A stretch of 64,000 bases of DNA, from NCBI GenBank assembly GCA_963921825.1, contig OY997595.1:18345228-18409227 (forward strand), read 5' to 3'. A model generated the notes under the pieces. It had not been told where the DNA came from. It was given only the letters and a program-made list of their open reading frames with translations, and ran no database searches. Both the position numbers and the translations under genes were made by a program. Positions within the stretch are counted from its first letter, which is position 1; every line of letters begins with the position of its first letter. The DNA comes from Erodium maritimum. Its lineage: Eukaryota; Streptophyta; Magnoliopsida; Geraniales; Geraniaceae. This document shows positions 211 to 45,330 of the stretch, piece after piece.

Positions 211-689
211 AAGTCGTCTCGCTCTATTGTTTGAAAGACCTGGTGAGGCTTTGTATGCCTAAAGACAGTGGGGGAAAGGGCTTTAGACACCTCCAAGATG
301 TCAACACGATCTTAGTGGGGAAAAAGGCGTGTGGGCTTTTCCATCGACCTGAATCTCTTGTAGCTCGGGTACTTAAAGCTCGATATTTTCCTACCACATA
401 CTTTCTTCAAGCGCAACTAGGGCATCAATCGAGCTTCACTTGGATAAGCGTCCTGTCTACCCAGGAGCTATTGCGAAGCGGTATACGGATTTCTATTGGG
501 GACGGTTGGGATACTCAGATCCAAGGCCCTCCCTGGCTAGTAGGACCGATTTCTACTATTGGATTGATAGGGGCTAACCTAGTAGGGGAACCAGTTGTAG
601 GCCTTATGATCCTAAACACCCGTTGTTGGGATATCCATCTCATGAATCAATTATTTGATGGGACGGATAGAGGAAACATCCTCAAAGCC

Positions 690-1020
690 CTTTGGTTGAA
701 GACCCTCTATCTAAGCTTTTGGCATCTCTGGCTTTCCCGGAATTCGGCAGTGTTCTCCAACCAACAAGAACCAGTTGAAATAGTCTTGATCAGGGTTCAA
801 CTCTTCACTTTCTCCTTGCTGAAATTAAAGCTCTCAGCCATTACAGAGCTAGACTTGTCCCTCTAGAAAAGCTCTCCAGCTTCTTTGCTTAGATCCTTTG
901 GCTCCTTTAATTCTGTTGCTATTTCTGTAAGGCCTTGAGCCCTCTTGCTATTCTCTTGCCCAATCTCGACTACGACCATCAATAAAATCGTTTTTTTCGG
1001 GGATAAAAATAATAAAAAAA
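690..1020 (+). mobile_element. 5'-truncated LINE 3' end nested in the LINE at 1-2108
   Basis: The host LINE reads coherently up to about 690 and resumes at about 1030. Between them is the last part of another LINE ORF2 (a W.LWLSRN motif typical of the end of zf-RVT regions), a T-rich 3' UTR and an A-rich tail near 1005-1020. The exact target-site duplication is not clear, so the ends are approximate. Confidence 0.5.
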
Positions 1021-1029
1021 CAAATCGAC

Positions 1030-1424
1030 AAAGGAATGAATGGTACTGGACATCAGATAAGGAGGGCCAATATACTATGAAGGCCGACTATGCTATTCTT
1101 GCTAGGGCGCGACATCAGCATCGCCAAAATGTCGGAGTTGCCACTTGGGTCTCAATTTGGGATATCCTAGTATCACCTAGGCTCCAGGTATTCTTGTGGC
1201 GGTGTCTCACTGACACCCTTCAAGTGGTGAGTAATCTAATGAGGAAGTTTGTTCCGATTGCATCTACGTGTGCTCCATGTGGCCGAGAGGAGGAAACGGT
1301 CTCGCATTTGTTCACTTCCTATGGATTTGCGAAAACGTGCTGGAGGGGAGTGGGAGGGATCCCTCCCCCGTGGTGGGTAAAACTTTTGAGGAATTGTGAC
1401 AGATTATCTCTACGGGGTCTCTGA
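1030..1424 (+). pseudogene. LINE ORF2 fragment: zf-RVT domain
   Basis: Open reading segment in a dead LINE. It starts near a WYWTSDKEGQYTMKADYA block, the usual W...GxYSVKSGY entry into the zf-RVT region. It continues with SPRLQVFLWRCL and a Cys/His cluster (CAPCGREEETVSHLF), which matches the zinc-ribbon of plant LINE ORF2 proteins. The frame is lost after about 1424, before the RNase H domain. Confidence 0.75.
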
Positions 1425-1627
1425 AGAGCAAAGAGGCGGAGATAGTTAGCATTTTATGAGAGATATGGAAGGCCAAGAACACATGGGTCTTGAATGGAGA
1501 CACCCCGGAAGTCATCAAGGTCATTGCGGATGCTAGGTCTCACCTTCTATCTTGGACCGAAGCTAATGCGACCCTTGTGACCCTAATGCAACCTCGGCCG
1601 GTCTGGGCGTCCTCGCTAGGTACCTAG

Positions 1628-2053
1628 GTTATCAATGTAGATGGTGCGGTCTTTCAGGATTCGGATCAATCAGCCTGGGGCCTCATTGTTCAAGGTAGGG
1701 ATGGTCGAGTAGGTCTCACGGTGAATGGGGTCATCTCGGGAAGTGGATCACCGATTATGATTGAGGCTTACGCCATTGCGACAACACTCCAGAACATGAC
1801 CTCTCTGGGAATTAGTCCTATTATTATCCATTCGGATGCTCAGGTTCTACTCAATATGATTCAATCAGGGGATCCGCCAGCATCCCCGGTTGGTACTGTT
1901 GTTAGAGACATCCGCCTCATGTTGGCTGAAAACGAGAGAATCTCTCTTCAATTTGTAAAAAGTACCGCGAATAAGGTAGGTTACTGGTTAGCCCGGAAAG
2001 CCCGTTCTATGTCTGTCCTTCAGTGGTCAAGAAGTCTTCCTGATGCACTCTAG
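1628..2053 (+). pseudogene. LINE ORF2 fragment: RNase H-like domain (RVT_3 type)
   Basis: The frame reads INVDGAV then WGLIVQGRDG, followed by IEAYAIATTL, IHSDAQVLLNMI and a final helix. These are the Asp, Glu and Asp blocks of the plant LINE RNase H fold. In elements that have it, the domain helps remove RNA after reverse transcription. It lies directly upstream of the 3' UTR and A tail, as expected for a C-terminal domain. The segment has no stop from about 1628 to 2053 but is out of frame with the zf-RVT block upstream. Confidence 0.75.
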
Positions 2054-2108
2054 TATATCGTTTCAAATGAAATCTAAATAAAGCTCCTCAACTTCTAATA
2101 AAAAAAAA

Positions 2109-17442: not shown

Positions 17443-19445
17443 AAAAGCTCTCTGCCTACCTCTTAGAGAGGTTTCATTTCTATCCTAGTCAGGGTCTCGA
17501 TGTCGCCGCCACTCATTGCTCTCGCCGCTCTCGCCTGAGTCACCGTCCCTCTATCCGGCGTAGATCAGTACGCTGGTCGCTCCTCCCTACTTCCCGAAGG
17601 TCAGTCCCATCGAGTCCGTCCTTCCGCGATGGTTCCGACGACTCCGTCGTCTTCCCCTCGTCGTCTCGGCCCTCCCTTGTACCGGATCTAGCCGTCTTTT
17701 GTCGGCTTTAATCCGGAAATGGCACTTAGCGATCAGATTCATCCCGTCGACGAGCCTCATCAGCCATAGGCCCCTGCTCTAGTAGGGTTCCTGTCCGATG
17801 TCACATTCACGCTGCCATCCACTGAAGCTCCCCCCCGCCCTCTGCCGGACCACCGACGGCCGGCCGACCCTCTTGCCCTGAAGGACAAACCAGGTACGTA
17901 GCCGAACGCCACTCTGGTTTCTAGGGCTCCGTTGGCCGCCTCGGGTCAGGACAAGAGCCGCTTGGAAATGGGGGAGGGTCAGGCTTCCTCGTCCACAGCC
18001 ACCGGCGGAGGTGTCTTGGTATCGCCCTCCGACAGATCGGCTACCGGACCCGAGTAATCGGGCAGCCAGCGGACCTGGGTTACATGTACGTCAAACTGAG
18101 GTGAGCTCGATCCGGATTTCCCCGGTCCCGGACTGGGAGGATGACGATGACGAGGTGGTGGTCTTGGAGGAAGGGGTCCCGACTTTCACCAAGGGCACAT
18201 ATCAGTTTTCTCTGGCAGCCCGGGTTGCAGGGGACCGGATCCACAATCAGAACGCTGTCTGCGCGATGATGCTGCAGAAGTGGAAGGTGAATGGAATACA
18301 GGTGGAATTCATGTCCCCGGAGGTTACTGGTTATCACTTCCCCTCCGCAGAGACGATGGAGAATATTCGTTATAGGGGTCCCTGGAGTTTCAAGGGTTTC
18401 ACCCTCCTGTTGGAGCCACTCATGCCTTATGTCCCGGCAAATGAGATTGAATTCCATCACATTGAGCTTGGAGTAAGGGCATTGAACGTCCCGATGGGAG
18501 CCAGGAATCCATATATATGCGGTCTTATTGCAGACAACATTGGCACTCAAGTGCTATTGGCCCCAATTCCCTATGTTAGGCGGGATGATCTGTTCTTATG
18601 GTTGCGGGTACGGATGGAGTTGAACCGACCTATACTGAGAAGAGTCCGACTCAGATTCCCAGGCACTACATCCTCCTCTTTGATTGAGCTGCAATATGAG
18701 AGGCTAACGAATTTTTGTCGCAGGTGTGGGCTGATGACCCACAGGATTATGGGATGTACGACTCATTTGCCAGGTACTGGTCGGGAGGAGGCCCGATATG
18801 ACTCGTCTATCCTGACCCCAAGGCAGATGGATGTGGATCGGCTGCTGCAGACGGTCTGGAATACACCCGCCGGTGACACATCCGGCTGTTACTGACCTGC
18901 TGAATGGTCTGTCCCTGAATCTGCTGATTTGATCCAGAGAAGTTGTTATGGGAGAAAGACTCCCCGTTGCAGACATTCTTTCGAAATCTGACAATCTGGC
19001 TAGGGTTACCTCAAGAGGGGTAACCAATGTAATGCAGGATGGAGTGCGTCGAGCCTCTGGAGGGCCCCGGGGCTTTACAAAGCCTGACAACCTGGCTAAC
19101 ATCCGTCCTGCTACTGATCCTATTGGCCTAGCTGAGCCCGGAGACACTGTAGTGACCTGGGAGGGGAAGGAGAAAGATCCCCAAGAAGCCCTAGGGAAAG
19201 GGGGGCCCAGCCGGGGAAAGATCAAGACGTCTACCCTGAAGACTAGGAGCAGGTCGTTGTATGATCGTTCGTTGGGGCCAAAGAAGTCGCTGGATCATTC
19301 GACCCTCCAACCAGACATCGATTGGCCGGTATACAATGAGGGGAATAGGGGGAGCAGGCGGAGGCACAGCAGCCTCCGATGCAGGAATGACCCGACCCGG
19401 CAGGGGTGAATGGAGTCGCTCTCGCATGATCCGAAGACAACTCCT
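17443..19445 (+). mobile_element. ORF1-type LINE derivative without ORF2
   Basis: It starts with a leader CTCTCTGCCTACCTCTTAGA followed by GC-rich sequence, then a long ORF1 segment (18011-18895) and an out-of-frame continuation of the ORF1 tail to about 19409. No ORF2 follows. The next sequence is a minus-strand relative with a matching leader at its far end, so the two lie tail to tail. Confidence 0.6.
18011..18895 (+). pseudogene. LINE ORF1 segment: DUF4283 plus CCHC zinc knuckle
   Basis: A stop-free stretch of 294 codons without an ATG at its start; the frame is broken upstream, so this is part of a longer ORF1. It holds DUF4283 (YQFSLAARVAG through RNPYICGLIADNIG) and a CX2CX4HX4C knuckle (CRRCGLMTHRIMGC), then the usual ARYDSSIL block. 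In autonomous LINEs such a protein binds the element RNA in the ribonucleoprotein. The basic C-terminal tail continues in another frame at 18948-19409. Relatives are at 12394-13403 and 27513-29405. Confidence 0.8.
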
Positions 19446-22439: not shown

Positions 22440-24840
22440 GATCTGCCCTTGAAGAGTCTGCATTTTAAAGGTTCTGTGATCCACTTTTGGAAATTGAAGA
22501 GTGAGTCAGGCTTAGAATTGTTGTAGAAGACCGAGAATGAATAGCTCTTTATTTTTTAGAGAGTCTCCTTAGGAGAGATTATGATACTATTGAAAATAAT
22601 GTTGTTCCTTGAAATCCATATAAATCAAAGAGCTAAGAGGATGATGATCTGCTATATATAGTTTTGTGGATTGCTTGCTGCTGAAGAAAGACCAAGAGTT
22701 GAGAAAGTCATGTAAATTATGAGGCATAACCCAAGTGTAGCCCCACCAACTAAATATTAGAGACCATATTGACCATGATTTGTGGCATTGAAAAAGTAAG
22801 TGTAGCAAATCTTCCAAATCATTAATGTAGAAGGGGCATAAGATCTGTTCCAAGTTGAAATCAATACCCCTGCTCTCAAGGAATCATTGAGTTAGAATTG
22901 CATTATGACAGCAAAGCCAGACAAATGTTGAGATTTTGGGTGGATGATAGGATTCCATAATAGTGTTCTCCATGACAAATTCAAGGTACCTTGACCTACA
23001 AGCAACTAATAAGCCTTTGTAACTGAGAAGGAATTTCATTTTTATTTCAAGGAAAGAAAATCAGGGGAATCAAATAAAGGTATTTTATTAAGCATGAAGC
23101 ATAAGACATTCAATTCTCCAAATTCCAAACCCTTGAGACCCTTTTGAAGCTTAAGAGTCGGTAACCTTCAAACCAGATTTTTCCTATTTTTGAAGGTTTT
23201 GGTTGCTTAGAACAAAAAGATTTTTGAAGGTAAACTTGAGAGCTACATTTCCCAACCAATGATCATGCCAAAAATTGATCCTGTTCCCATTGCCTAGAGA
23301 CTATTTCAACCCCAAATGGCCAAATGATGAACTGAATCTTGCATCAAAAGTAAGTGAGTGGATATGAGAGCTGTAATTTGGGGTAAATTTTAGAGAATTG
23401 AAGTTCCAACCAAATATCTGCCAGCCAAATTTTGAACAAATGATTGTCTTCGAAAGAGATGAATCATAAAAAGCAAATATCCACCACCATTTCCCAAGTG
23501 GGGCTAGATTCATGAATTGAAGATTTCTAATTCCAAGGCTTCTATCTTTCTTAGACTTGCAGACAGTCTCCCACTTAATTTTATGCACTACTCTTCTTGA
23601 AACAGTTCCATTCCAAATAAATATTTTTTTGCCAATTTTCAAGTTCTTTGAATACACCAACATGGACTTTAAATAGAGACATATGATAGAGGGGAAAGGA
23701 GGACATAGTGGATTTAATAAGAGTGATCATCCCCTCAAAAGAATGTTGTCTTGCTTGTCAAAGGCTGAGTTTGCTTTTGAAAGAGTTGATGATAGGCTTC
23801 CATGATGATATTCTTCTAGGATCAGCCACTAGTTGAAATCCTAAATAAGATAGAGGGAGGGAGGTTGCTTCACATCCAAGTATGTTGGAAACTAGATTTT
23901 CTAAGAGATAACAAGGGTAGAGCAACACAAATTGTGAGTTGTGGAAATTGATCTTGAGGCCTGAGGCTAACTGAAATGCATGAAGAGTGAGTTTAAGGTT
24001 GATGATGATTAGAGTGTCATCAACAAAATGAAGATGTGAGATTTTTGGCCCATTTTCTGAACATACCACTCCACTGAATTGATATAAATTGGTGTTGTAC
24101 TCAATTAATTGGCGCAAACCTTCTGCCACAATTGAAAAGAGTAAATGGGAGAGAGGACGCCCTTGTTTAATGCCACTTTGTAATTTGAAATCAAGAGATT
24201 GAGATCCGTTTATCAAGACTGACACCTATGCTTGGAAGCAAAACAATAACTATGATCTCCATTTTTTTTAACCAAAACCCATTGTTCCCAATAAATTAAG
24301 TAAATATTCTGAATTGACATGGTCATATGCCTTCTCAAGGCCCACCTTGAATAAAATGACCTCCTCTTTAGATCTTTTAACATATTTAACAATCTCTGCA
24401 ACAATTAATACCCCATCCAGAATCTATCTTCCTGCAATGAAACTTAATTGAACATCACTCACCAGATGATCCAAGTGAACTTTTAGTCTTGAGGCCAAGA
24501 TTTTTGCCAATATCTTATAAAGGCCTCCTATTAAGCTAATAGGCCTATAATCTAAGAAGGTCTAAGGATTGCTAGTCTTTGGTATTGAGGTAATAAAGGA
24601 TGAATTCAAACATTTTCCTAATTAAGAGGTTTGGTGAAAATGAGATAAGGACTTGCAGATATCATCCTTTAAAAAGTGTCAACATTTCAGATAGAACTTG
24701 AGAATATAACCATCAGGACTAGAGGATTTTTCACCATTTCAATCTCTTAGAGCTTTAAGAATTTCTATTTTAGTAAAAGGAAATTCCAATTCAACAGCTT
24801 GTTGATGATAAATTGATTTGAAGTCCAGCGAAGATAAATC
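22440..24840 (-). pseudogene. LINE ORF2 remnant: RT and zf-RVT
   Basis: Fragments in three frames match the ORF2 at 39368-43034: RT motifs LQSGIKQGRPLSHLLFSIVA and HLHFVDDTLI (Phe-Val-Asp-Asp in place of FADD), the post-RT region (MNLAPLGKWWWIFAF), and a zf-RVT block CPFYINDLEDLLHLLFQC. The C-terminus reads SRNNIIFN and ends near 22440. The CPxY in place of CPxC is shared with the younger copy, so it was inherited rather than acquired by decay. Confidence 0.8.
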
Positions 24841-26898: not shown

Positions 26899-27074
26899 TA
26901 AATTAAAGCACATATTCCATTATAAATTTTGGATAGGAAAACTTGTGAAGCCATTTACAAATGAGCCGGATTGCTTTTTTAGAGATATATAACATGTTTT
27001 TTTTTTAATCTGAACTCGACATTTCTTTTGTGATGCAACCACTTGACACTTATTATATCGGGTTTACGTTACTT

Positions 27075-29471
27075 TTTTTTTGAGTAAATATTGCAATATA
27101 TATTAAATCATGATAAACGAGTTTGGTAGGTACTGAAATGTACCCCACCTACATAACAATCCAACTAATAAATTGAAATGAACTGAAAGCAATAAAATCG
27201 GCTCTGGTAATGGGGTTTGCGGACGAAGGGGATATCTGCGGTAGCGTCTGGTGACACCGATACAACATGCTTCTTCCAACATGGGACGAGGCGAGCCAAC
27301 CAAGTTTAGGGGAATACTGGTGGACCTACATCTCCCCCGGTGTGTCAGCGTGCGTCGTCCTCCCTAGAATGATAGTGGTAGGGCTCCTGAACGCGGGATT
27401 GTTGACTCCGGACTGGCAGGGGAGATAAAGCTCAACTGGTGATGGTGTCGTCTCCATCCATCCGCCGGGAAGGGGCCAAAGTTGACCCACCCCTCCCCGG
27501 GCCACCGAGGCCTCATTTCTGCAGGCGGGGGTGCTTGACGCCCCCCACCTCAGCCTGTGAGTCCCCATCTGCCTCTGTCGAGCCGTTCGACTCATCGTGA
27601 TCCTCTTCCCTGTCCAGTCGTTTCTTCCCAAACAACGACGGACTTCCTTCCTTCGCCACCCAACCAGACGGGGTGTCCTCCGAGTCTATTTCATCAGTGT
27701 CCACCCGATCCAATCCAGGGTTCGAGTCCATGGTTGGGGTACGGGAAATGCCCCGAGCCGTACACCTAGCCTCCAGATAGGACCAGTTCGTTCCCGGGAT
27801 CGCCTTCCCGTGTTTGGCCTTCTCAAAAGCCGAACGCGGGTCCGCCGGGGCTCGGAGCGAGTGGCCCCGTATACCTCCCGCAACCGGGCACGACAGAAAT
27901 CGGTGCCCCGCACAACTGCACCCATAGCAGTGGTCTGGTAAATGCTCATACGATACAGAAAGTAGCGTACGTACCTGTGATTCCGACAAGCGGAACCAAA
28001 TCTGACTCTGCAAAGGAAGGCGGATATCGGCCCGACTCCGGACCCTCATGAAGTCCCCCCAGCATCGGCCAGCCGCATCCACATCCACCGCTTGACATAC
28101 TCCCAAAGCGCTCCCGATACGAAACCCTACTGCCCTGTTCCAGGCCCCCACAGGCAAGTTTGAGATCCTAGCCCAGACCGAGAATTGGTGAAAACTCAGC
28201 TCACCCACCTGCATGTGGGCCCTCAGGTCAGTAAACAGGACTAGGGACTCCCAGAACGCCCAGGGTTCCCCCGCGAGCACCCTTTCCCGTTCCCTTGCCG
28301 TGCGGAAGAAGAAGCCTACTAGTCCCCCTTCCAGGGGTCTAGCATCCACCTTCATTCCCCACAAGTCCTCCATCCTCTCTACCAGGGATCTCCAGAAGAA
28401 CTGCTTCGATGTCAGCACTTTCGCTGCCAGCGCAAAACGGAACTGCATCGTGTCCTGGCCAACATCCCCAGTTGGGATTACTACCTCCGTGATCCGCATC
28501 GAGGACAGCTGCTGCCCCAACTCGGGAACCACTCTCCCCGGGTCTCGACGGGGTTCCGTCTGGTCCATGTCCCCCAATGCCCGATCAGCCTCTCCCGTCC
28601 TTCCCGAGCCATACCGAGCCGCCCAGGTAGCTACATCCCCAGGCCCGGCCGGTCCATTTCTGCCGCCACGACCTGCCCGGGGAAGCCAATTACCATCCCC
28701 TCGGCCCCCACGGCGGGCATCTCCCATGAAAGATCCACCGCTTCCCAGTGCTCGCCCACGCTCCACCTCCGGGTCGGTTGCCTCGGGATGGTGCCCTTCC
28801 GTCACCACCGCCTTGCCTTTCGCCCGACGCCGCTCCTGCGCTGCTTGGGACTCCGGGTACCCCTCCTCCGAGTCCGACGGGATGATCACCGGCGCGATGG
28901 CTTCCTCCCCATCGGCATGCAGCAGCCCCGGGGGTCTATAGTGTGCACCCCGACGAGCCCGGGACCACATGCCCCTCACCGGCACTGGATCTCGTCCCGA
29001 TCCCAGCCTAGTCCTCTCGCTTCCGCCCCCGCCGACAACAGCAGGACACCGGACCGACGAGAACTCCATAACCGGAGTCACAACCGCCGGTGATGCCAGG
29101 TCCCGTGCCTGAATCGGCACAGTGGTTTCCTTCCCCGCCTCGCCGTCCAGCGTTGGCCCGATCACTGCCCTCGCCCGATGGCTCCCCACGTGCACGTCCG
29201 ATCTCCGCCCGGCATCGCCAACGTCGACCTCCACAGCCACCGATCGTGGCCTCTCCCCCTCTACCTGATCTGCACCAGCCGGACACCCGGATACCAGTAC
29301 CGTACCCACACCGATCTCTCCCCCGGCCAGCGTCTCCTCTACCGGATCACGCCACAGGGAGGAATCACCCGAGATGCTTGACAGATTCGCCCCCGAGTTC
29401 ACCATCGTTTCTCGCTTTTCCGAACTTAGGGTTCGCAGAGCAAAAACAGAGGCGGCACTCAAAGATTTCTG
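27075..29471 (-). mobile_element. full-length ORF1-only LINE-type retroposon with an open ORF
   Basis: Exact 15-bp direct repeats GGGTTTACGTTACTT at 27060-27074 and 29472-29486 flank the element. On the minus strand it has a 66-nt leader, one 630-codon ORF (27513-29405), a 438-nt 3' UTR and an A-rich tail against the left repeat. There is no ORF2 and no room for one. The same 3' UTR phrases occur in 30184-31405 (CGCTGACA and CAGACGCTACCGCA), so it is a family. Exact duplications and an unbroken frame mean a recent insertion. The layout matches mammalian HAL1 elements, which carry ORF1 without RT and move with help from L1. Confidence 0.85.
27513..29405 (-). CDS. intact LINE-type ORF1 protein (DUF4283, CCHC knuckle), 630 aa
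   Basis: The first ATG of the frame (MVNSGANLSS) is taken as the start; the frame stays open a little further upstream without an ATG. Residues 1 to about 320 are low-complexity Gly/Arg/Pro-rich, probably disordered. About 335-480 is DUF4283 (FALAAKVL, GFFFRTAREREVL-like strand, EPWAFW, VWARISNLPVGAWN, FMRVRSRADIRLPL). A CX2CX4HX4C knuckle follows at about 493-506 (CYGCSCAGHRFLSC), then an acidic and basic tail. ORF1 proteins of this type bind the element RNA. It is the sole gene of the retroposon. The sequence is very GC-rich compared with its flanks. No stop or frameshift is seen, so it may still be translated if transcribed. Confidence 0.85.
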   Translation of the reverse strand: MVNSGANLSSISGDSSLWRDPVEETLAGGEIGVGTVLVSGCPAGADQVEGERPRSVAVEVDVGDAGRRSDVHVGSHRARAVIGPTLDGEAGKETTVPIQARDLASPAVVTPVMEFSSVRCPAVVGGGGSERTRLGSGRDPVPVRGMWSRARRGAHYRPPGLLHADGEEAIAPVIIPSDSEEGYPESQAAQERRRAKGKAVVTEGHHPEATDPEVERGRALGSGGSFMGDARRGGRGDGNWLPRAGRGGRNGPAGPGDVATWAARYGSGRTGEADRALGDMDQTEPRRDPGRVVPELGQQLSSMRITEVVIPTGDVGQDTMQFRFALAAKVLTSKQFFWRSLVERMEDLWGMKVDARPLEGGLVGFFFRTARERERVLAGEPWAFWESLVLFTDLRAHMQVGELSFHQFSVWARISNLPVGAWNRAVGFRIGSALGVCQAVDVDAAGRCWGDFMRVRSRADIRLPLQSQIWFRLSESQVRTLLSVSYEHLPDHCYGCSCAGHRFLSCPVAGGIRGHSLRAPADPRSAFEKAKHGKAIPGTNWSYLEARCTARGISRTPTMDSNPGLDRVDTDEIDSEDTPSGWVAKEGSPSLFGKKRLDREEDHDESNGSTEADGDSQAEVGGVKHPRLQK

Positions 29472-29486
29472 GGGTTTACGTTACTT

Positions 29487-30183
29487 AGTCTCTACATAAC
29501 AGTGTTTATTTTACTGTTATGAGTCGCTCGCTTTTACTTGTTTTGGAATCTTTTTTTCATAGGAAATCATACATAGTACCGTATGTAGATAGGAGAGTGG
29601 TAGTGAAGTTTTGGTAAATGTATGCTTTATTGCAGTGGGTGTGGGTCTCTTTCTCCTTCCGGCAGCCACCAAACAAAGAGGACATGTCTGTATCTATATA
29701 TATATTATATTATTTCTCGTATATATCAAATCTTTGTTTTATAGATGATTCTTTTATCCTCAAAACAAAGTCACATGTAATCGTACAGCTATATTCACCC
29801 CATCTTCTTACCCTTTTTTCGTACCAAGCCGCCAACGGGCGCAATCATGTCACGTAGACAAATAGTTTACAGAACCTACCAGACAACCCTTCTTTCTTGC
29901 CGATCAAATAATAACAACACCACTTCTCATATTAATTTGCTTCTTATTGAATATTATCACACTTAGCTATCTCGATTTTTTTCTTCGAATAGAATCCTAG
30001 TTATAAGACCATTACACTTGAGTACTTGACCTAATATAACCTCAATAGAATTGATGATTATACATACTTTTATATTAAAAAGAATGTTTCAAAACTACCA
30101 GCCATTTCATTTCAGAGAGAGAGATAAATTAGGATACTTTTCATTTCGTGTATAATATTAGTATAGATTACACGACTCTCTTT
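29487..30183. other. AT-rich stretch, no gene
   Basis: No coding motif or repeat end recognised; it includes a short TATATATATATTATATTATT run near 29695. Confidence 0.55.
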
Positions 30184-31405
30184 TCTCTCTGGAAATTAGG
30201 GTTTGAGCGAGTATAACGACAACAAGTTTTTCCAACTCCGACAATCACCACATACCGATCTCCAGCAGCGCTATCACCGAACTCGGGAGGGACGACGTTG
30301 GGGGATCAACATCATATATGTTTGGCCGGTAGAGCGGTGGAGAACTCTCTGGTGGTCTCTAGAGGGAACGGGGGAGGAGAACCCAGGGCCACCTACTGGA
30401 ACAACCGTGTGGACTGGTGCGGTGCATACCGATGGGAGGTTTGAGGTCAAGACTTCGCCGAGTAGAGCAGAGTCTGGGGATCTTAGATTCGACGAGGGTT
30501 GTGTTGCCGAGCCCGTTGTCTTCATTGCGAACTAAGGAACTCGGTGCACCGGGGAGTTTCACATGGGGACGAGCAATGATAGAGTAGTTGGGGTCTACGA
30601 ATCATGACACCGACATCATGGGGATCTATGGGGGACGGCCTTCGACAGCTCCTAGTGTGCCAGTAATGGACGACCATCGAGAGACACCGACCTGGCGGCG
30701 GCGTGAGGGGAAGGAGCTGGCTAGGGCTTCTGCAAAGAGGCTATAGGATGTGGGCCTTCAGAAACTGTCATTGGGTCGGGGTCCATCAGAAGCAGACCTA
30801 ATGGCCCGAGGAGACCAGGGCTAGTATCGAAGGGGGCCATGAAGGAATATGATCAACCTGGGCCAGGCGAGTGGGCCGCTTGGGTTCCCGACAACAATCA
30901 GAACCGGGCCATTACACATAGCGGCGGGGGGCTTTAAGCACCCTCGCCTCATCGAATGAACCCAAGGTGGTCTAGAGGGGGGTCGGTTGGATTCACTGCC
31001 CCCTCTGGACGTAAGGTGGTAAAGGTTCCACCAAGAACTGGCAAGGTACTTCCTACCTGCTCGTAGGTCAGCAATTTCGCGTTTTGGAGCCATACCATAA
31101 TCATTTCAAGGAGGACGACACACGCTGACAGCCTGAGGGAGTACTCAGTCCACCATAGTGTTTCTCTGGAAATGGGTCTGATCTACCCTAGCTTTTAGTA
31201 TGGACTCATTGTATCGATGTCAGACGCTACCGCAATATCCTCTTCCAAACATCTCAGTGAGGCAGTTCGGTACCTTGAGCTCTTTATGTTTCTATTGAGG
31301 TCCTCCATTGTTGGGAACTCTTTCATTGTTCTTATTTCAGTCTTTTATTGCCTTTGATTATAATCACTCTTTATTTATAATATCCCTTCGTCATTCTAAA
31401 AAAAA
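30184..31405 (+). mobile_element. internally deleted relative of the ORF1-only retroposon
   Basis: The 3' UTR shares, in order, GGAGGACGACACACGCTGAC (31111 on) and CAGACGCTACCGCAATATCC (31221 on) with the minus-strand element at 27075-29471. It ends CATTCT and A8 (31398-31405). The 5' part is GC-rich, without DUF4283 or knuckle. No clear duplication. Confidence 0.65.
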
Positions 31406-32089
31406 TAAAAAATAAAAATATATTTTTTCACGCATTTGTTGTACGTACTTGTGGATGGCTACTTGTTTATATTTGAATTATTTATTCAATGTAATATTAT
31501 AAATTTTAATATGTATAAACTATAACCAAAGTTTTAATTGGTTCTTATTAGACCGTGTCACATCACATCAAGAAATAATTCAAGGAGACACATTTTTATG
31601 TGTTATATTAGTGGCTACCAAGGCGACGCGGTAAAAATATTACGTCGCCTTAAGGGGGTTGGAAGACGCAATATTTAACTTGTGTCATGTTAGCTGAGCC
31701 ACTTGAGAGACTTAACTTAATATTGCATCTCTCCAATAGGTCAAAACCTTAAATTCATCTTCAACAACCAAAAACTCGTTTTTTAAAATTTTCAAATATT
31801 TGAGCTCCATTTCTTCCCTTTGCATCGATGTATTGAAATCTACTATTACTACATATTGTTACAACTTTAGATGTATAATTTTCTTCGTTGTGTTAGATGA
31901 ATTTTCCGTTGAAAAGTTGTTAAATTATTTTAGGTTTATTATATATAATGTTTTTATTATAAGCTCGAAAATTTTATTGATAAGACCGAATCATTATTAT
32001 ATATTATATATAATGTTATTAATTAATTTAATAACAATTTTTTATATAAGTGAATTTATTAAGAATTTATTTCTCTAAGGAGGAGAAAA
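31406..32089. other. AT-rich stretch, no gene
   Basis: No feature recognised. A 92-codon hydrophobic frame at 31800-32078 is what AT-rich sequence gives by chance. Confidence 0.5.
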
Positions 32090-35204: not shown

Positions 35205-38200
35205 TGATATATATTTTTATAAGTGGTGATGGTTTTATCGATTGATCTCTCGATTACAAGAAAATAAACCAGAGGCATAATGATACAACCCTCAAATAAA
35301 AAAAAGGGATCAAAATGAATACTGAATGAAGCCAAAAAACAACATAAAAAACGAGAATCAAACTCCCACAAAGCAACTAAAAGTATTACATCGCCAACAT
35401 TCCAGATCTGACGAGAGAACCAGATCCCCAGCTTCTTTGCAAACAAACTAAGAATGAGACTGAATTTTGGCAGAAGTCTCTTCCAAGCTATCCCCTTTGC
35501 CTTGAAACAACTTAGCATATAAACGCATCCATAAATGCCACAAAACCAAATAACCACTTTTAACCCAGACCTTCCACTACTTCTTTGAACCCACACCTTG
35601 CCAACAAAGAATTAAGGCCTCCATGTCTCTAAGAAACACAAATACCAAGAACCACCACCTACACACTATACTCCATAACATCCAAGCACTCTCGTAATGA
35701 ATGAATAGATGAGGTCCATCCTCAAAAACCTTCTTGCACTAAACACAACATTCCAGATAAATGAATTCTCAATCCCTGACCCTCCAAAAAATAAAGCGTT
35801 GGAATGGTGTTGTGCACCATAAGCCAAACCAACGTGCTGAAATTTGAAGGCAAGCCTGTCACCCACAAGAAACCAGCCCAAGGATAAACCCTGTCAGCCT
35901 CATTCAATAACAAATCAAAAGCTACAGAAGTCGAAAAACGCTTCGAACTCCTAGTCCAAATCAGCTTATCTCTCTTATTAGAATACACAGAGATCATATC
36001 CAACATCACCATTAGATCCCTAGACAAACCACATTCCCCATAATAACTGGCTCTACAAAAACCAAGGTTGGAAGTGGCCCGAGATCCACTTGCCCTTGGA
36101 AGTAGCCACGACATATAAACGTGGGATACAATACTGAAGGGAAATATCCCCTAACCAAATATCTTCCCAAAAACGAATACGAGACCCATCTTCCAGATTC
36201 CTATGAAGAGCTTTCCCTCCCAAAATATACTGAAATCTAGGTTCCCTGGCCAAAGACTTAATGTGGCCAAAATTAAAAGAACTAATTGGTCTGTCAATTG
36301 AGGATAAATTCCACTCCCTCCAATCCCATCCAAATTTAGCACAAATAATACGCTTCCATAATGAATCGGTCTCATCAGAAAAACGCCAAAATCACTTCGC
36401 CAACAAACTAGTATTAACCATTTCCAGCTATCTAATCCCCAAACCTCCTTCCTTTTTAGATCGACAAACAGTTTTTCAATTTACCTTGCATAATACCCTC
36501 CTGGCCACATTACTATGTCAGAGAAACCTTCTATGCCAAGCTTCAAGAAAAGCAATAACATATTTGGGAGCTCTAAACAGGGTCATATAAAAAACAGGTA
36601 AAAGTGACAAGGTAGATTTGATCAGAACAATACGACCTGCAAAAGTAAGGGTATTCGACTTCCACAAGGCCAACGAGTTCTTAAACTTCTGGACAACTAG
36701 TTCCCAAACGAATGCTTTAGAAGGCTTAGCGCCCAATTAAAAACCAAGATAAGGCAAATGAAGGTCACCCACCAAACATCCCAGGGCCGATCCTACGAAG
36801 TCAGCTGACACATTTGCACCGTTCAACACTACAACCTTTGATTTATCAAAATTCACCTTCAATCCTTAACATGCCTCAAAATCCAACAGCGTTCCTTTCA
36901 AAGAACCCAAATGCTCATAATTACCAGTAATAAACGATAACATATCATCTCTAAATTGCAAATGAGACACTATCGGTCCATCTCTCCCAACATGAACACC
37001 TCCAAACTCCTCCTCCTGCAAACCTCCCTCCAATAGTCGATGAAGACCTTCTAGGACAATCAAAAACAGAAACGTGGCTAAAGTCAACCTTGTCGAAGAC
37101 CATTAGTAATATCAAAATTCTAACTGTGAGAGCCATTAATTAGAATTGCCAATGAATCCTCAACTCCTCCACCTGCCCCAAAAACCCATCATCCTCATCA
37201 CATAAAAAATATAGTCCTAACGGACTTTGTCGTAAGCCTTCTCGAAGTCCAATTTTAGTAGGACTGCTTCCACTTTATGATGTTTAACATACTCAAGAAC
37301 CTCTGCTAAAGTTAAAACCCCATCGACCAATTGCCTAATTTTTCACAAAACCACTCTGCCAATCGCTAATGATATCAAGAGTCACCTTCTTCAACAATTA
37401 GCCAATAACTTCGCCAGAATCTTATACGAGGTCGAAATGAGGCTAATTGGGAGAAAATCCTACATTCTTTCAAGAGATGAGACTTGGTGATTAAAGTAAC
37501 AAAAGTCGGATTAAGGCCCTTTCCAATGATCCTAGAAGCATAAAAATCATGCGCAAAAAGCATCACCTCCGACTTGAAAATTTTCTAACACCTTTTAAAG
37601 AACAACAATGTGAACCCGTCATGACCAGGAGATTTGTAACTCCCACAATCACTAACTGCCTCCCACACTCCGATTCTGAAACACCATGGCTCGTTGTGAC
37701 AAACCTAAACACGAGCCCTCAAGGACATGAAGTAGAACGCAAAAGTGTATGGTTCGGGGTCCTAGACCACCACACCTACGTCCGCACGACCTCATGCACG
37801 CGTGATGATCGACAACAACACCTCCTTACGAGACGGGTTTAGAGAAGCCAGACGGGCCACCATGCCTAATCGGAGACGCTAAAAAACTAGAGGATCCGAC
37901 GGGTTATAGGGAACCACAACCTCCACCGCCTCCTCCTCGGTGAGGAAACAGGCAAAGAAGGTGGTTTGAAGGTCCCCCATCCACGACAGAGGAACGAGAG
38001 GGGTCAGAGCCCTAACATGGGTTACCACCGTCGGAACCACCGGATGAGGGGTCGGAGCCCTAACAGGAAGGATTTCTCCGAGATATCCGTAGGATTCTGG
38101 GGAGCCCCCATGGAAGTCTGCGACAAGGCCTGGCCAAGCACCTTGGTCGTGATCGCGATTGGTGTAGTCTCTCCCGACGAGAAGACCACCAAGGTTTGGT

Positions 38201-39367: not shown

Positions 39368-42300
39368 TCAGTGCCTCTTTCTAGACTTCTTGAAAGAACA
39401 AGTCCAGGGATTGTTGATCCAGGCCCCAAAAGAAAATGAAATTCTTTTCTGATAATTTGCCCACACCAGCTGGTAAACATCATTTTGGATTTGTTGTAAA
39501 ACCTCATCTGGATTAAGAAGAACCAGATTAAACACCATGTTATTTCTGCACAGCCACACCCTCCAAATGGTGAAGGACACCACAAATTTCCAAGCTGAAT
39601 GAGTTGTGAAAGGCCCCAAAGATCTCCAAGAAATAAACCAACCCTTTATGTCCTCAGGACAAGCTGTCTGAATCCCCCACCATTTCAGAATCAATGACCA
39701 AACAGACCAAGAAAACTGACAGCCTAGAAACAAATGGTCCACTTCTTCTGGTTCCTCATTGTAAAGAGGGCACCAAATATGAACAGGTACTATGCCTCTA
39801 GTTAATAGGAAGCATTTAGTAGGCACAGCTTGTAAACACATTAGCCAAACAAAAGCAACAATTTTTGGGGGTAATTTAGGCTCCCAAAGAAGTGCAGGCC
39901 ACTGTAAATCTTCCTCAGAGTTATCCTCAAGATGTTGATACATTTTGTGCACAGAAAAACCCTTTTGATCAATTTTCCAAGCCACCTTATCAGCCTCAGA
40001 ATTTAAAGGAGGCAGGACATTAATTTTTTCGCAAAGTAGATTAAAAATATCCTTCTCCCAACCCCTCAAATCTCTTCTGAACTGTAATACCTAGTCTCCA
40101 TCCACCCAAAAATGAGAAACCACTGCCCTCTTTTGATGACTGAGGTGGTATAACCTCTGAAAGAGTATTTTGAGAGGGACATCAGTGATCCAAAGATCAT
40201 CCCAAAATAAGATGGAATTCCCAGAATTCAGTGTCCAAGTTAACCCCACTGCCCCAAATGCATCAGCAAATCTAGGACAAACCAGTAAAGACCCTATATG
40301 TCTTAAGAAGCTCTGGTTATTCCCAATGATGAATTTGGAGAGATCCCAGGCTGCTGGATCCCAACCAAATTTGGAACAAATTAATTTTTTCCACAGAGAG
40401 TCTTCTTCTAGTGCAAACCTCCACCACCATTTAGCCAATAAGGCATTGTTCATGATCTCCAACCTCTTGATCCCCAAGCCCCAACACTATTTGGTTTACA
40501 AATGTTATCCCACTTGACTTTATGTAATGCCTTTTTGTTCAATTTCCCACTCCAGAGAAATTTTTTCTGCCATTTTCCATTTCTTTAATCACACCTTTGG
40601 GAGCCTTATACAAAGACATATAATACAATGGTAGATAGCTTAAAGAGGATTTAATGAGAGTTATCCTCCCACCGAAGGATTTATTTTTGGCTTGCCACAA
40701 ACTCAGCTTGTTTTTGAATTTATCAACCACAGGTTCCCAAGTCTTGGCCCTCCTAGGATTAGCTCCCAACTTAAAACCCAAGTAATCAAAGGGTAACTGC
40801 ATAGCCCCACAACCCAAAATACCAGTAACCTCATTGATATCCATAGTATCAGGATTCATTAATAGCACTTGAGACTTGTTGAAATTCATTTTCAAACATG
40901 TTGCTTTCTGCAGACAGTTGAGGGTGTGTTTCAAGTTGATGGCTTGTTGTCTTCCAGCTTGGATAAAAATTAAAGTGTCATCAGCAAACTGCAAATGTGA
41001 GATTTCTGGTCCATCCTCACTACACTTGACCCCAGAGAACATTTTAAGAGTTGACCCTTTCACCATAAGTTGATGCAGACTCTCAGCAACCATAGCAAAT
41101 AATAATGGAGATAGTGAACACCCTTGCCTGAGACCTCTTTGAAGTGGGAAGTCAGCAGATGGGGAACCATTGATTAGAACTGAAGTCCAAGCCTCAATGC
41201 AAATAGATATCCATTTCCTCCACTGAGACCCAAAACCCATAAGAGATAAAATGTTCAACAAAGCTCCCCAATGAATATTATCATAAGCTTTTTCAAAATC
41301 TATCTTAAGAACAATGACCTCTGTCTTCACCCTTTTGATATAATGTACAAGTCCAGTAGCAATCAATACCCCATCCATGATTTGCTTCCCAGCAATGAAA
41401 CCAGCCTAAGTGTCATGAACCAAAGAATTCATCAATGGTTTGAGTCTAGTAGCTAAGACTTTGGAAATGATTTTATAAACACTGTGAACAAGACTAATGG
41501 GCCTGAATTCATCAAAAGTCACAGGAGCACTATTCTTAGGGATTAAAGTGATGAATGATGAGTTTAGACCCTTCCCCAACAGCCCACCTTTATGAAAATG
41601 GTCAAAGAATTCCAAAAAATCACACTTGAGGATCTCCCAACAAGACTGGTAGAAAAGCATTGTATACCCATCTGGACCAGGAGATTTATCCCCATTACAA
41701 GCTTTGATGGCCCCAAAAATCTCTGCTTCAGTGAAAGGAATTTCCAAGTTGGTTACTTGTATCTGAGTCAAAACCTTGAAGGGTAATGTGGATAAGTCCA
41801 AGAACACAGAGAAGGACCCTTGAAACCTTTTGGCAAAGTGCAAAGTTGCCACCTCTTTGATCTGAGCAGGAGTATGGTACACCACTCCCCCTTCAGTAAT
41901 GCTAGCAATTTTCAACCTGGCCTGATTTATTTTGGCCACAATGTGGTAGTACTTTATGCATCTATCCCCATCAGTAGACCATTTTTGCCTTGACTTCTGA
42001 CACCATAATTTGGCCTGAGTTTTCAACTTCTGAATTAGGTAGGCATTCAACAAGGCCCTATGAGAAATCTCCATTGAACTAAGGCCCCTTTCTCCAAGTA
42101 AATTATCCAAAACACCAATCTCTCCCTTTAGATCCTCAATCTGTTTGTCTAACCAACCAAAAATATTAACATTCCAGTTTCTATAGAAAGACTTTAGTGC
42201 CTTTAATTTATACCAAAGCCTAAAGGTAGGAGAGCCTCCAACCTGAACATTTTGCCAACACTCTTTTGTATGCAACAAGAAACTAGGGTGACTAACCCAA

Positions 42301-43034
42301 GCATTTATGAATTTGAAAGGCCTGGGACCCCAATCCACCACAGGATTAGATAAGAGCAGTGGCTTGTGATCAGATAACAGCCTAGGGAGGCAAGCTTGTG
42401 ATAAATTGTTAAAAAGCCCAAGAACAGTGGTTGAAACAAAAAATCTGTCAATCCTTGATGCCATATCCCTAAAGTTAAACCAAGTAAACTTCCCACCATC
42501 CAAATGCAGATCCACTAAGCCCAGATTGTTTACAAAAGTCCTGAAATCCCTCAGACTGGTTGAAGAGTAATTGGAACCAGATTTGTCTCCAGGATCAAGG
42601 ATGGCATTGAAATCCCCAGCCACCACAAGGTTGTTATGGAGAGATGATGCAACCTCCCCAATCTCCACCCACAAAGAAGTCCTAGCAGTGATAGAGCAAG
42701 GGCCATATACATTAATCACTGCCAATAAAAGATTGAGAGGTTTATAGCAACCAGTCCAATAAATCACATTATCATCACAGAAGTTCTGGTGCATCTCAAA
42801 AGTATCTGTATCCCACAGAGTGTATAAACCTCTAGAATTCCCAAAAGAAGGACTATAGATACCTACCCAAGTGGAGCTGAAACCACAAGAAGAAAGAAAA
42901 AACACAGTTAATGTAGCTTGTTTAGTCTCTTGTATTAACACCATATTAACCAGTTGCTTGGAACACACGTTTCGAATGGCCCTTCTCTTTTGTTTTGAAG
43001 TGGCCCCTCGAATGTTCCAAGAGAGAATTCTCAT
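39368..43034 (-). pseudogene. LINE ORF2 (endonuclease, RT, zf-RVT), disabled
   Basis: Starts ATG at 43034 (MRILSWNIRG). The APE-type endonuclease is complete in motif terms: Asn7, Glu36 (QETK), GDFN at 140-143 and SDH at 221-223. RT follows, with KIDFEKAYDN, RQGCSLSPLLF and FADD (40988-40977). Next come the region ending FGGRITLIKSSLSYLP and a zf-RVT block near 39700-39900 with CPLY in place of CPxC. In-frame TAG codons lie at 41408-41406 (expected Gln) and about 40090-40088 (expected Trp). The frame also shifts between about 40550 and 40490. So four or fewer lesions separate it from an open frame, and both stops fit C-to-T type decay. Confidence 0.88.
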
Positions 43035-45112
43035 GGCAGAGAGAGTCTAATATGAGTGATGGATCTCCCCACACCTAATCCATCCTCCTCAACATCCTCC
43101 AAATCACAATATTCATCTTCAGTACTAGTATCAAGTTCCACAGCTTGATTCACCTCCTGATCAAGATTATCAAATTGTTCAGCTACAGCTTCATCTGAGA
43201 GATAAGCCTTTAACCCCAAAGCCTTGCAATACTCCAGTGTCCCTGCCCCTCCTTGATTGAATTTTTGTCTCCCACAGTCTCTCTTCTTGTTGCCGGTGTA
43301 AGGTTTTAGTGTTGAGATAATAGTCTTAGCCTTGGACCTGGTATTGTAAGCCACAATATCCAGCCCCTTGTCTTTCTTTTTGTTCAAATTACCCTTGCAG
43401 CCAAGTGTACTAATTAGAGGCTGATTGGGAGTTAAAATGTGATTTGAACCTTCATTTCCCTCCAAAACTAAATAATTCCCCACTGTAGCATTGGTCCTGG
43501 GCCCCAAACCTGCAGAATTAGAAGAAAGACTTGACATCTCATTAATAACTCCCAAACCCAATGAGCCCTTTTGTCCTTGAACCACCAAAGTTGTCCCTTC
43601 AGGCTCAGTGAGAGGATCTGTAGGATAGGGTTCAAGCCCCAAAATAGGAATAGTACTCCCTTCACCTGTTAGAGTTGCCGGAACAGTAACCAAAATAGCA
43701 GCAGGTTCTTCTTCCAAAGTATCAGGTACAATCAATACCTCAAGGGAGGTGGTTGGAGGCAATGATTCACCTTCAATGTTGTCATTACTACCCAAAGGAG
43801 GATACATATTAATCCTCAATGATTGCTCAGCCTCCACCAACTTCAAAGTTAGCCCTTCTTCCAACAATTCCTCACCAACCAACAAACCAGTGTCAACCCC
43901 AGGATCCACAGTGGCTAATAAACAACCCACATCTTTATAAGCCTTCTTCATAGCCTCACTACCTTGAACAATCTCAGAGTTTGGACCAGGGCATGTGTCT
44001 GACCCAGATGACCCTGAGATATCTTCCTCAGCATGGGAAGAATCAGAACTAGAAGAGATGCAAGGCTCATAGAACACCTTGGGGACCTTTTGTATATCCA
44101 CAGAGCTAGCCATGAAGTTGTATTCCTGACCATCTAACAAAAGTCCAGATTCCTTGTACACTCTCAGATACTCCTGTGAATGCATAAGCACAAAACCCAC
44201 CTCCAAAGTATTTCCAAACAATGATTCAGGATGTATCCATACAACCGACCCTAGATCAGCACAGGCTGCTTCAAAGGTTTCAGAACACCAGCCCATAATG
44301 GGAATGCCATGAAGAGCTACCCATGTAAATTTCCCCCCTTGTCTGCACAAGTGGATCTTATCCACCAACACTGTCATCCAAGCCTTCAACCATTCAACAT
44401 CTTTTTTCAAAGCTTCCTTTCCAACATGATCATCTGGAAAATAAATTAACACCACCCTGTTCCCAAGCGATTTGATACAAATTTGTCCATCTCTCTCCGC
44501 CCTAAAGTCTTCCATAATCATCTCCACAGGGTAGTCTTTGTTTAGTACAACAAGATGACCCTTTTCCAGCCACAACTTATACTCTTCAACCACTGTGCCT
44601 TGAGGGATCTGCAATCCAGCTTCCAACTCTTGCCTTCCCAAATCTTGTTCTTTTAACACAGAAGTTGTTGCTTTCCTTTTCCACCGCTGCTGGTTGAGTG
44701 ATCTCGGATTATCTGATCTGTTGTCCCAGGCTTTGGCAACAAACAATTTATAACCTTTTAGTACAAAACCATTAAAGATATGAATTCCTTTGAGCAAGGC
44801 TTCACTGGTTCTAAAGGTCACAAAACCAAACCACTTGCCCCTACTATTTGGGTTGATAAGCGACACCACCTTCACAATGTCTCCACATTCCAAGAACAAG
44901 TTCTGCAACCATTGATTAGAAGTCTTTGGTGGGAGATTATGCACAAAGATTTTGAAAAACTCCCCTTCCCGCCCAGCCCACTTGTCCTGAAGTATCTCAA
45001 ATCGATTTTGTGTTGTGACAGGAGCCGTATCTAACCTTAAAACCTTCCTAGCTTGATCTGTAACAATTCGCTCGAAACCCGGCGGAGGTCCGGTAGCCGA
45101 CGAAGACGCCAT
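43031..45112 (-). CDS. LINE ORF1 protein with RRM, 693 aa
   Basis: True ATG at 45112-45110 (MASSSATGPPPGFER). Residues about 50-130 form an RNA recognition motif: RNP2 KIFVHNL at 54-60 and RNP1 RGKWFGFVTF at 91-100. A DUF4283-like part follows (LVVLNKDYPVEMIMEDF, then GKFTWVALHGIPIMGWCSE). The rest is Ser/Glu-rich, with a basic segment (KKKDKGLD, RSKAKT) and an acidic end. It is expected to coat the element RNA. The stop TGA overlaps the ORF2 start in the tetranucleotide ATGA (43034-43031), which suggests ORF2 is translated by reinitiation after ORF1 termination. Fully open, no lesion seen. The family of the 22340-26040 copy has the same order. Confidence 0.9.
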   Translation of the reverse strand: MASSSATGPPPGFERIVTDQARKVLRLDTAPVTTQNRFEILQDKWAGREGEFFKIFVHNLPPKTSNQWLQNLFLECGDIVKVVSLINPNSRGKWFGFVTFRTSEALLKGIHIFNGFVLKGYKLFVAKAWDNRSDNPRSLNQQRWKRKATTSVLKEQDLGRQELEAGLQIPQGTVVEEYKLWLEKGHLVVLNKDYPVEMIMEDFRAERDGQICIKSLGNRVVLIYFPDDHVGKEALKKDVEWLKAWMTVLVDKIHLCRQGGKFTWVALHGIPIMGWCSETFEAACADLGSVVWIHPESLFGNTLEVGFVLMHSQEYLRVYKESGLLLDGQEYNFMASSVDIQKVPKVFYEPCISSSSDSSHAEEDISGSSGSDTCPGPNSEIVQGSEAMKKAYKDVGCLLATVDPGVDTGLLVGEELLEEGLTLKLVEAEQSLRINMYPPLGSNDNIEGESLPPTTSLEVLIVPDTLEEEPAAILVTVPATLTGEGSTIPILGLEPYPTDPLTEPEGTTLVVQGQKGSLGLGVINEMSSLSSNSAGLGPRTNATVGNYLVLEGNEGSNHILTPNQPLISTLGCKGNLNKKKDKGLDIVAYNTRSKAKTIISTLKPYTGNKKRDCGRQKFNQGGAGTLEYCKALGLKAYLSDEAVAEQFDNLDQEVNQAVELDTSTEDEYCDLEDVEEDGLGVGRSITHIRLSLP

Positions 45113-45330
45113 GAAAGGTTCAAACCCCAGTCCCCCACAAAACAGAGTAATGCTTTTGAAAACCAGGTGGCCCGATAATCAGAGATTGATCATCATGGGA
45201 TGTGGAGAGTACGTGCTTGTTCTTCTTATTCATGGTCTCACTTACCCTGAACCCTAAACTCTGCCAGTGAAGGCTTGCCAGGTCTACCTGGAGTTTGGTT
45301 TCTTTGTCCTGGGTTTCTGTCCGCGTGGTG

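Follow-up and report, generated by a model that had tools for sequence, protein, structure and literature searches.

The window analysed here, a 64,000-nt stretch of Erodium maritimum DNA, holds on its minus strand (positions 27060–29486) a complete retroposed unit with exact 15-bp target duplications, a short A-tail, a 630-codon ORF1 and no ORF2. Such a unit raises the question of whether it is one damaged LINE or a member of a replicating family that encodes ORF1 alone, and, if the latter, which enzyme copies it. We consider it quite likely that the element belongs, in intact form, to a large and diversified ORF1-only family of plant L1-kind non-LTR elements ("half-LINEs") that is mobilised in trans. 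That half-LINEs form an ORF1-only family kept by selection is almost certain, and that they use the ORF2 of a LINE in trans is very probable. The naming of a particular LINE of the same genome, LINE-A, as the main ORF2 donor is tentative.

Layout of the element and its ORF1 protein

The features of the element are collected in Table 1. The initial annotation had described a complete retroposed unit with exact 15-bp duplications and an A-rich tail, and the coordinates bear this out. Of the 66-nt leader that it had proposed, 54 nt stand as the family leader, and the remaining 12 nt are not common to other copies. The ORF1 codons occupy 27516–29405 (630 aa) and the stop 27513–27515. Pfam finds in this frame both domains that had been claimed for it, DUF4283 (E 6.9e-14, above cut-off) and the CCHC knuckle zf-CCHC_4 (E 2.5e-4; at 21.1 bits, below its 27-bit cut-off). 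It finds no other domain up to E 1, in agreement with the earlier statement that the unit carries neither endonuclease nor reverse transcriptase (RT).

Table 1. Coordinates of features in the window
Feature	Positions	Strand	Basis or remark
Target-site duplication, left copy gggtttacgttactt	27060..27074		Exact 15-bp match to 29472–29486
Target-site duplication, right copy gggtttacgttactt	29472..29486		Exact 15-bp match to 27060–27074
A-tail of the element	27075..27081	-	T run on the + strand; family tail ...TTTACTC-A(n)
54-nt 5' leader of the family, beginning with AGTGCCGCCTCTG	29406..29459	-	Start in 36/40 copies, small variants allowed
12 additional nt separating the duplication from the family start	29460..29471	-	Not common to other copies
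ORF1, 630 codons and stop, intact	27513..29405	-	Reading frame; codon-position tests
DUF4283 domain	28038..28373	-	Pfam; AlphaFold2 model like RRM folds
CCHC zinc knuckle (zf-CCHC_4)	27885..28028	-	Pfam score under cut-off
3'UTR, 431 nt	27082..27512	-	Copy alignment
3'UTR core, the best-conserved stretch of the element; structured RNA predicted, covarying pairs	27217..27512	-	Conservation and fold
Predicted hairpin, ~45 nt from the A-tail	27125..27149	-	Folding of copies
Second, diverged half-LINE relative, approximate ends	30170..31420	+	Same 3'UTR core, A-rich tail, no long ORF1 frame

An AlphaFold2 model of ORF1 residues 300–515 (mean pLDDT 79.6) matched 78 PDB chains in Foldseek at E <= 0.001, with RRM-type folds in the lead. 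By title, the best 50 of these 78 include HuR, hnRNP A1, NONO, SFPQ and U2AF65, all of which we take to carry tandem RRMs, along with one unnamed spliceosome chain. The query-normalised TM-scores are low (0.25–0.31), and hence the model points to an RRM-like RNA-binding fold and not to a close homologue; it is in this sense that the ORF1 domain resembles such a fold. A sequence search of the PDB returned a sole match, at E 0.81, which is not credible. DUF4283 is conserved in the ORF1 of plant LINEs (PMC11288735).

A family of copies and the selection on it

We searched the genome (763 Mb in 40 contigs) with the window element and analysed the best 40 of 3,594 first-look candidates, that is, the window copy and 39 others. 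Scoring only the best 40 favours long, similar copies, and counts from this set and from the best-150 sets used below are therefore lower bounds drawn from a biased sample. The 40 places are 83–100% identical to the query, and most span its positions from about 14 to 2400 of 2427. ORF1 runs directly into the same 3'UTR in every one of them, and 36 have the common 5' start, (A)GTGCCGCCTCTG with small variants allowed, the other four being 5'-cut or without the start. Duplications of at least 11 bp flank 29 of the 36 copies with the family start, compared with 3 of 360 mismatched pairs of upstream and downstream flanks; at 9 bp or more the figures are 32/36 and 23/360. Apart from the window copy, 28 of 35 copies with the family start have a clear duplication, and all 28 duplications differ from one another. 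Between duplication and family start lie 0–39 extra nucleotides in 28 copies (one value is -2), and 12 in the window copy. The same 5' start, the same junction and independent duplications, which the initial annotation had proposed to look for, are thus all present.

Genome-wide pattern counts extend this picture. The exact junction between ORF1 end and 3'UTR occurs 503 times and an exact 21-mer of the 3'UTR core 1,227 times, each with no match to the reversed-pattern control. A 3'UTR 21-mer of the main subfamily, at up to two mismatches, is found at 349 places (control, 1). The 5' start pattern has 37 places at up to one mismatch, some of them by chance, and allowing a second mismatch raises the number to 90 (control, 30); that these are fewer than the places of the 3'UTR 21-mer is expected with frequent 5' truncation. 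A search with the ORF1 domain gave 13,714 candidates, and none of the best 150 falls below 81% identity with the window copy. Half-LINE copies are scattered across contigs C1–C9, each with its own flanks. Several half-LINE subfamilies coexist and keep the same ORF1–3'UTR layout, and diverged relatives adjoin two LINE loci (L055 and L069) and lie beside the element in the window itself (Table 1). ORF1 is uninterrupted in 7 of the 40 read copies, and one more has lost only its stop; seven intact frames are, taken alone, no evidence of selection.

No ORF2 lies between ORF1 and the 3'UTR in any of the 40 read copies, and an exact pattern running from ORF1 end to ORF2 start has no match in the genome, which, for an exact pattern, is a weak negative. 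An apparent lack of the 3'UTR behind lower-ranked ORF1 copies had suggested an ORF2-bearing LINE at those places, a suggestion dropped once a more universal core motif was tried. On contig C1, the exact junction or the 21-mer is near 13 of 16 loci ranked 1–70 versus 2 of 17 ranked 71–150. In the first 51 Mb of C1, the core motif stands 1,106–1,184 bp downstream of 9 of 14 ORF1 loci (1,145 bp in the window copy), and among the loci of 82–86% identity there, downstream of 5 of 9. One of the five loci without it (C1:25586623) has the exact junction; the other four, all of the 82–86% group, are unexplained. A two-ORF LINE sharing the family 5' start was likewise considered and rejected: several other pattern matches read GTGCCGCCTCGGCTTTTGCT, and the one that was read out (L091) is unrelated, a chance match. 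A DNA search with the ORF1 C-terminus, whose best 40 places were mostly known copies, settled nothing.

Changes among the 40 copies were counted with the window copy as reference, a change being called shared if present in three or more copies. In ORF1, shared changes fall 145/156/350 on codon positions 1/2/3, and singletons 215/215/227; in the DUF4283 and CCHC region the shared counts are 8/6/79. The corresponding pN/pS of ORF1 is 0.33 for shared and 0.81 for singleton changes; with transversions only, the contrast is weaker (0.47 versus 0.69). Parsimony on the tree of copies points the same way: it assigns 22/2/126 domain changes to internal and 86/89/178 to terminal branches, and in the whole ORF1 the terminal counts (441/457/669) show some third-position excess and are not flat. 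Purifying selection on ORF1 is thus clear in the changes that copies share and not in singletons, and this third-position bias in shared changes implies that the lineages required ORF1 as they spread. The selection on ORF1 that the initial annotation had looked for among copies is therefore present, and so, with one layout in 40 of 40 copies and 503 junctions, is the plant half-LINE family that it had envisaged. The shortest terminal branch measures 0.0135, and the read copies give no sign of current activity.

Outside ORF1, the first ~300 nt of the 3'UTR, its core, have 0.084 shared changes per site, the lowest of six regions (ORF1 domain, 0.190). Changes in the 3'UTR lack codon phase (12/21/17), and it is therefore not coding. 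A fold of the core, predicted on eight sequences of which three are diverged relatives, has 92 pairs with 94.0% of cells paired. Pairs changed on both sides number 17, as against 5.5 +/- 1.9 in shuffles (0/500 as high) and 2–6 in slid controls, over which the fold is favoured because it was predicted from the same alignment. Further pair types (40, versus 37.0 in shuffles, 60/500 as high) are one of five covariation measures and not exceptional, and the RNAalifold covariation term is only -0.37 kcal/mol. The core is probably a conserved, covarying RNA structure. It has no match in an Rfam search with the 3'UTR. The hairpin predicted near the A-tail was checked over 40 segments, two of which (L010 and L032) were cut out of place.

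Two other origins for these copies deserve weighing. Judged by its layout, an isolated copy could come from a single internal deletion in an ordinary LINE, or from an assembly artefact. The remaining copies refute this: none of the 40 has ORF2, the junction recurs exactly 503 times and the duplications are independent, so that the probability left to it is negligible, and the initial annotation was right to see neither a truncated LINE nor a lone deletion. A more serious proposal is that the copies are processed pseudogenes of a host DUF4283 gene, repeatedly retroposed by LINE enzymes and never serving as templates, in which case the selection would be that of the host gene; near-neutral singletons together with selected shared changes are expected under this proposal too. 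It does not sit well with the tree of the 40 copies, which divides deeply into two lineages (22 and 18 copies), contains 11 cherries and is bushy where a single source would give a ladder. Nor does it fit the several subfamilies of identical ORF1–3'UTR layout, the 1,227 exact core motifs, the fixed 5' start, or the ORF1 frames that are uninterrupted (or lack only a stop) among the read copies. DUF4283 is moreover a LINE ORF1 domain in plants (PMC11288735). Hence we regard processed pseudogenes as very improbable.

LINE-A and other candidate donors of ORF2

For a half-LINE, the likeliest mechanism would be trans mobilisation of the HAL1/HeT-A kind. Its mRNA would be translated into ORF1p, which may bind its own RNA with its RRM-like domains and zinc knuckle, probably via the structured 3'UTR, and this RNA would then be copied by the ORF2 enzyme of another LINE. 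The leading candidate for that LINE is LINE-A, which has endonuclease, RT and RNase H, lacks ORF1, and has a 3' terminus resembling that of the half-LINE.

In a zf-RVT search of the genome, the best 150 of 12,902 candidates were scored and 30 loci extracted. These mostly belong to one family, LINE-A, whose prominence reflects its top scores with the zf-RVT model. In the best LINE-A copy, ORF2 is uninterrupted over 1,354 codons and has endonuclease (APE), RT, zf-RVT and RVT_3 (RNase H) domains. LINE-A carries only a GC-rich leader, of roughly 460–580 nt, ahead of ORF2. Of 28 leader matches, 21 have starts no more than 6 nt apart, and 16 of these are followed 465–580 nt downstream by an ORF2 N-terminus, which leaves no room for an ORF1. 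A second leader query gave 10 long matches, 7 of them beginning at the query's own edge, so that the 5' boundary of this second leader is not proven. Five copies were examined for duplications: two have them, of 12 and 17 bp, around the ORF1-less unit, and the remaining three yielded 9 bp, an A run and 7 bp. In a codon test of 28 of the 30 loci (leaving out L057, a different LINE, and L064, which matched only in part), shared ORF2 changes number 202/119/671, and LINE-A ORF2 is under selection. The initial annotation had not foreseen a LINE without ORF1.

It had suggested looking for an autonomous LINE with the same 3'UTR. None with the ~430-nt sequence was found among the few LINEs read; this 3'UTR is absent from LINE-A, and the whole half-LINE has no substantial DNA match to the five full LINEs read. 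The likeness to LINE-A lies in the last ~28 nt. Six of the 40 half-LINE tails and three LINE-A tails, hand-chosen representatives, were compared, and 10 of 18 half-LINE/LINE-A pairs reached p < 0.05 (raw p, 42 comparisons), versus none of 24 in which the partner was one of three other LINEs or the second half-LINE of the window. The window copy's own tail reached p = 0.04 with only one of the three LINE-A tails. The likeness is short, AT-rich and modest, and since LINE-A ends about 18–20 nt past its ORF2 stop, its 28-nt tails include the last ORF2 codons.

Few ORF1 loci stand near ORF2 sequences. Taking the best 150 of each, 3/150 ORF1 loci are within 12 kb of a zf-RVT place, and 1/150 has a LINE-A endonuclease place on its own strand less than 8 kb away (at +5.9 kb); no pair among these ORF1, zf-RVT and endonuclease places is spaced as in a LINE with two ORFs. 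Among the few two-ORF LINEs read, L080 and L081 come closest to both halves (30% and 35% in ORF1, 39–40% in ORF2). Descent of half-LINE and LINE-A from one two-ORF ancestor would be the simplest history.

The part played by LINE-A might be larger or smaller than that of main donor. The dependence could be mutual, with LINE-A RNA needing half-LINE ORF1p just as half-LINE RNA needs LINE-A ORF2p. Consistent with this are the fixed 5' end of LINE-A and its leader without ORF1, the selection on its ORF2, the similar tails, the similar median terminal branches (0.0223 in half-LINE and 0.0225 in LINE-A), and the position of L080/L081 as nearest to both halves among the few two-ORF LINEs read. Some LINEs and SINEs, however, need no ORF1p, and LINE-A may be one such element. 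The ORF1p of other LINEs may also be available to it, and an action of half-LINE ORF1p on LINE-A RNA is conjecture. We think mutual dependence rather unlikely. If true, there would be two separately copying, mutually dependent halves, both recognised via a similar 3' terminus, and an ORF1p-only RNA with a structured packaging 3'UTR beside an ORF2p-only RNA would amount to a multipartite genome of genomic retroelements. We give a similarly low probability to the reverse case, in which the main mobiliser is an ordinary LINE with two ORFs, for instance L080/L081, and LINE-A is irrelevant. These LINEs are present, with long ORF2 frames and ORF1-like frames (interrupted in the read copies), and the tail of the second half-LINE in the window looks like theirs by eye; yet their tails match that of the main half-LINE family no better than shuffles do (p 0.27–0.92).

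Relation to known ORF1-only elements

ORF1-only LINEs are already documented in mammals (HAL1) and at fly telomeres (HeT-A). HAL1 is a non-autonomous L1-kind derivative with ORF1 only that arose several times (PMC5753468); the half-LINE is alike in having ORF1 only, no ORF2 and many copies of one layout. It differs in coming from a plant and in its ORF1, which has DUF4283/CCHC and is not a mammalian ORF1p. Further features on the half-LINE side of the comparison are the strong conservation and predicted structure of its 430-nt 3'UTR, the coexistence of several diverged subfamilies within one genome, and a best-matching donor that itself lacks ORF1. HeT-A of Drosophila telomeres encodes a Gag-like protein only, with no ORF2 (PMC11698117), and to that extent resembles the half-LINE, which also encodes one protein. 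However, HeT-A forms head-to-tail telomeric arrays, whereas half-LINEs are dispersed and have target duplications, and TART and TAHRE have both ORFs, whereas LINE-A has ORF2 only. The half-LINE would seem to work like HAL1 and HeT-A while belonging to neither clade.

Among plants, Celine and other L1-type LINEs share DUF4283 in ORF1 (PMC11288735), but the two ORFs of Celine sit in a single unit. The EKA family of Blumeria comprises numerous copies that trace back to the ORF1 of a LINE (PMC4641428); these are degenerate, truncated copies and a source of recruited effector genes, and not a replicating ORF1-only family. A search of the open-access literature gave, among the matches listed, neither a plant ORF1-only LINE family nor an ORF1-less plant L1. 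Because the half-LINE family is abundant and diversified, selection has acted on ORF1 and 3'UTR independently of any self-encoded enzyme. The family thereby isolates the required role of ORF1p, presumably the binding of its own RNA, and supplies a covarying candidate RNA target. With the selected, ORF2-only LINE-A alongside it, the cis preference of ORF1 and ORF2 and their division of labour become directly testable. As to the clade itself, Pfam gives DUF4283 and zf-CCHC_4 only on the window ORF1, which sets it outside mammalian HAL1; the ORF1-only layout, the marks of retroposition and the selection on ORF1 make it HAL1-like in kind.

Half-LINE pieces beside LINE-A

Among the 30 LINE loci taken from the zf-RVT genome search (best 150 of 12,902 candidates), two carry a piece of half-LINE, the ORF1-only family, positioned tail-to-tail and close behind the A-tail of LINE-A, the ORF1-less family regarded as its leading candidate ORF2 donor (L055, 2665–3140; L069, 163–476); the gap between A-tail and piece in L055 is roughly 100 bp or less. 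Such pairs appear to be commoner than the density of half-LINEs would predict.

Extra nucleotides at 5' ends

Among the half-LINE copies L009–L048, most of those whose duplication is clear have 0–39 nt, unrelated to the family, separating that duplication from the family 5' start, and family-unrelated extras of about 8 and 36 nt occupy this position in two LINE-A copies (L084 and L085). The extras in both families could perhaps reflect 5' transduction originating at upstream transcription start sites.

Related sequences in the window

Further LINE-related features of the window
Feature	Position	Strand	Remarks
Diverged half-LINE relative	30170–31420	+	3'UTR core as in half-LINE; no long ORF1 frame
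Third DUF4283+CCHC ORF1-like frame	17882–18892	+	24% to half-LINE ORF1
LINE, ORF1 with RRM_1 and ORF2 with endonuclease	39371–45178	-	ORF2 split over several frames
LINE ORF2 remnant	249–2071	+	
LINE ORF2 remnant	23641–24729	-	
LINE ORF2 remnant	36332–37459	-	

The half-LINE relative ends in TTATAATATCCCTTCGTCATTCT-A(n), which by eye resembles the tails of LINEs of the L080/L081 type, two-ORF loci that are rival donor candidates; each half-LINE family may perhaps follow a donor of its own. Within the window, tblastn detected no same-strand ORF2 downstream of the ORF1-like frame.
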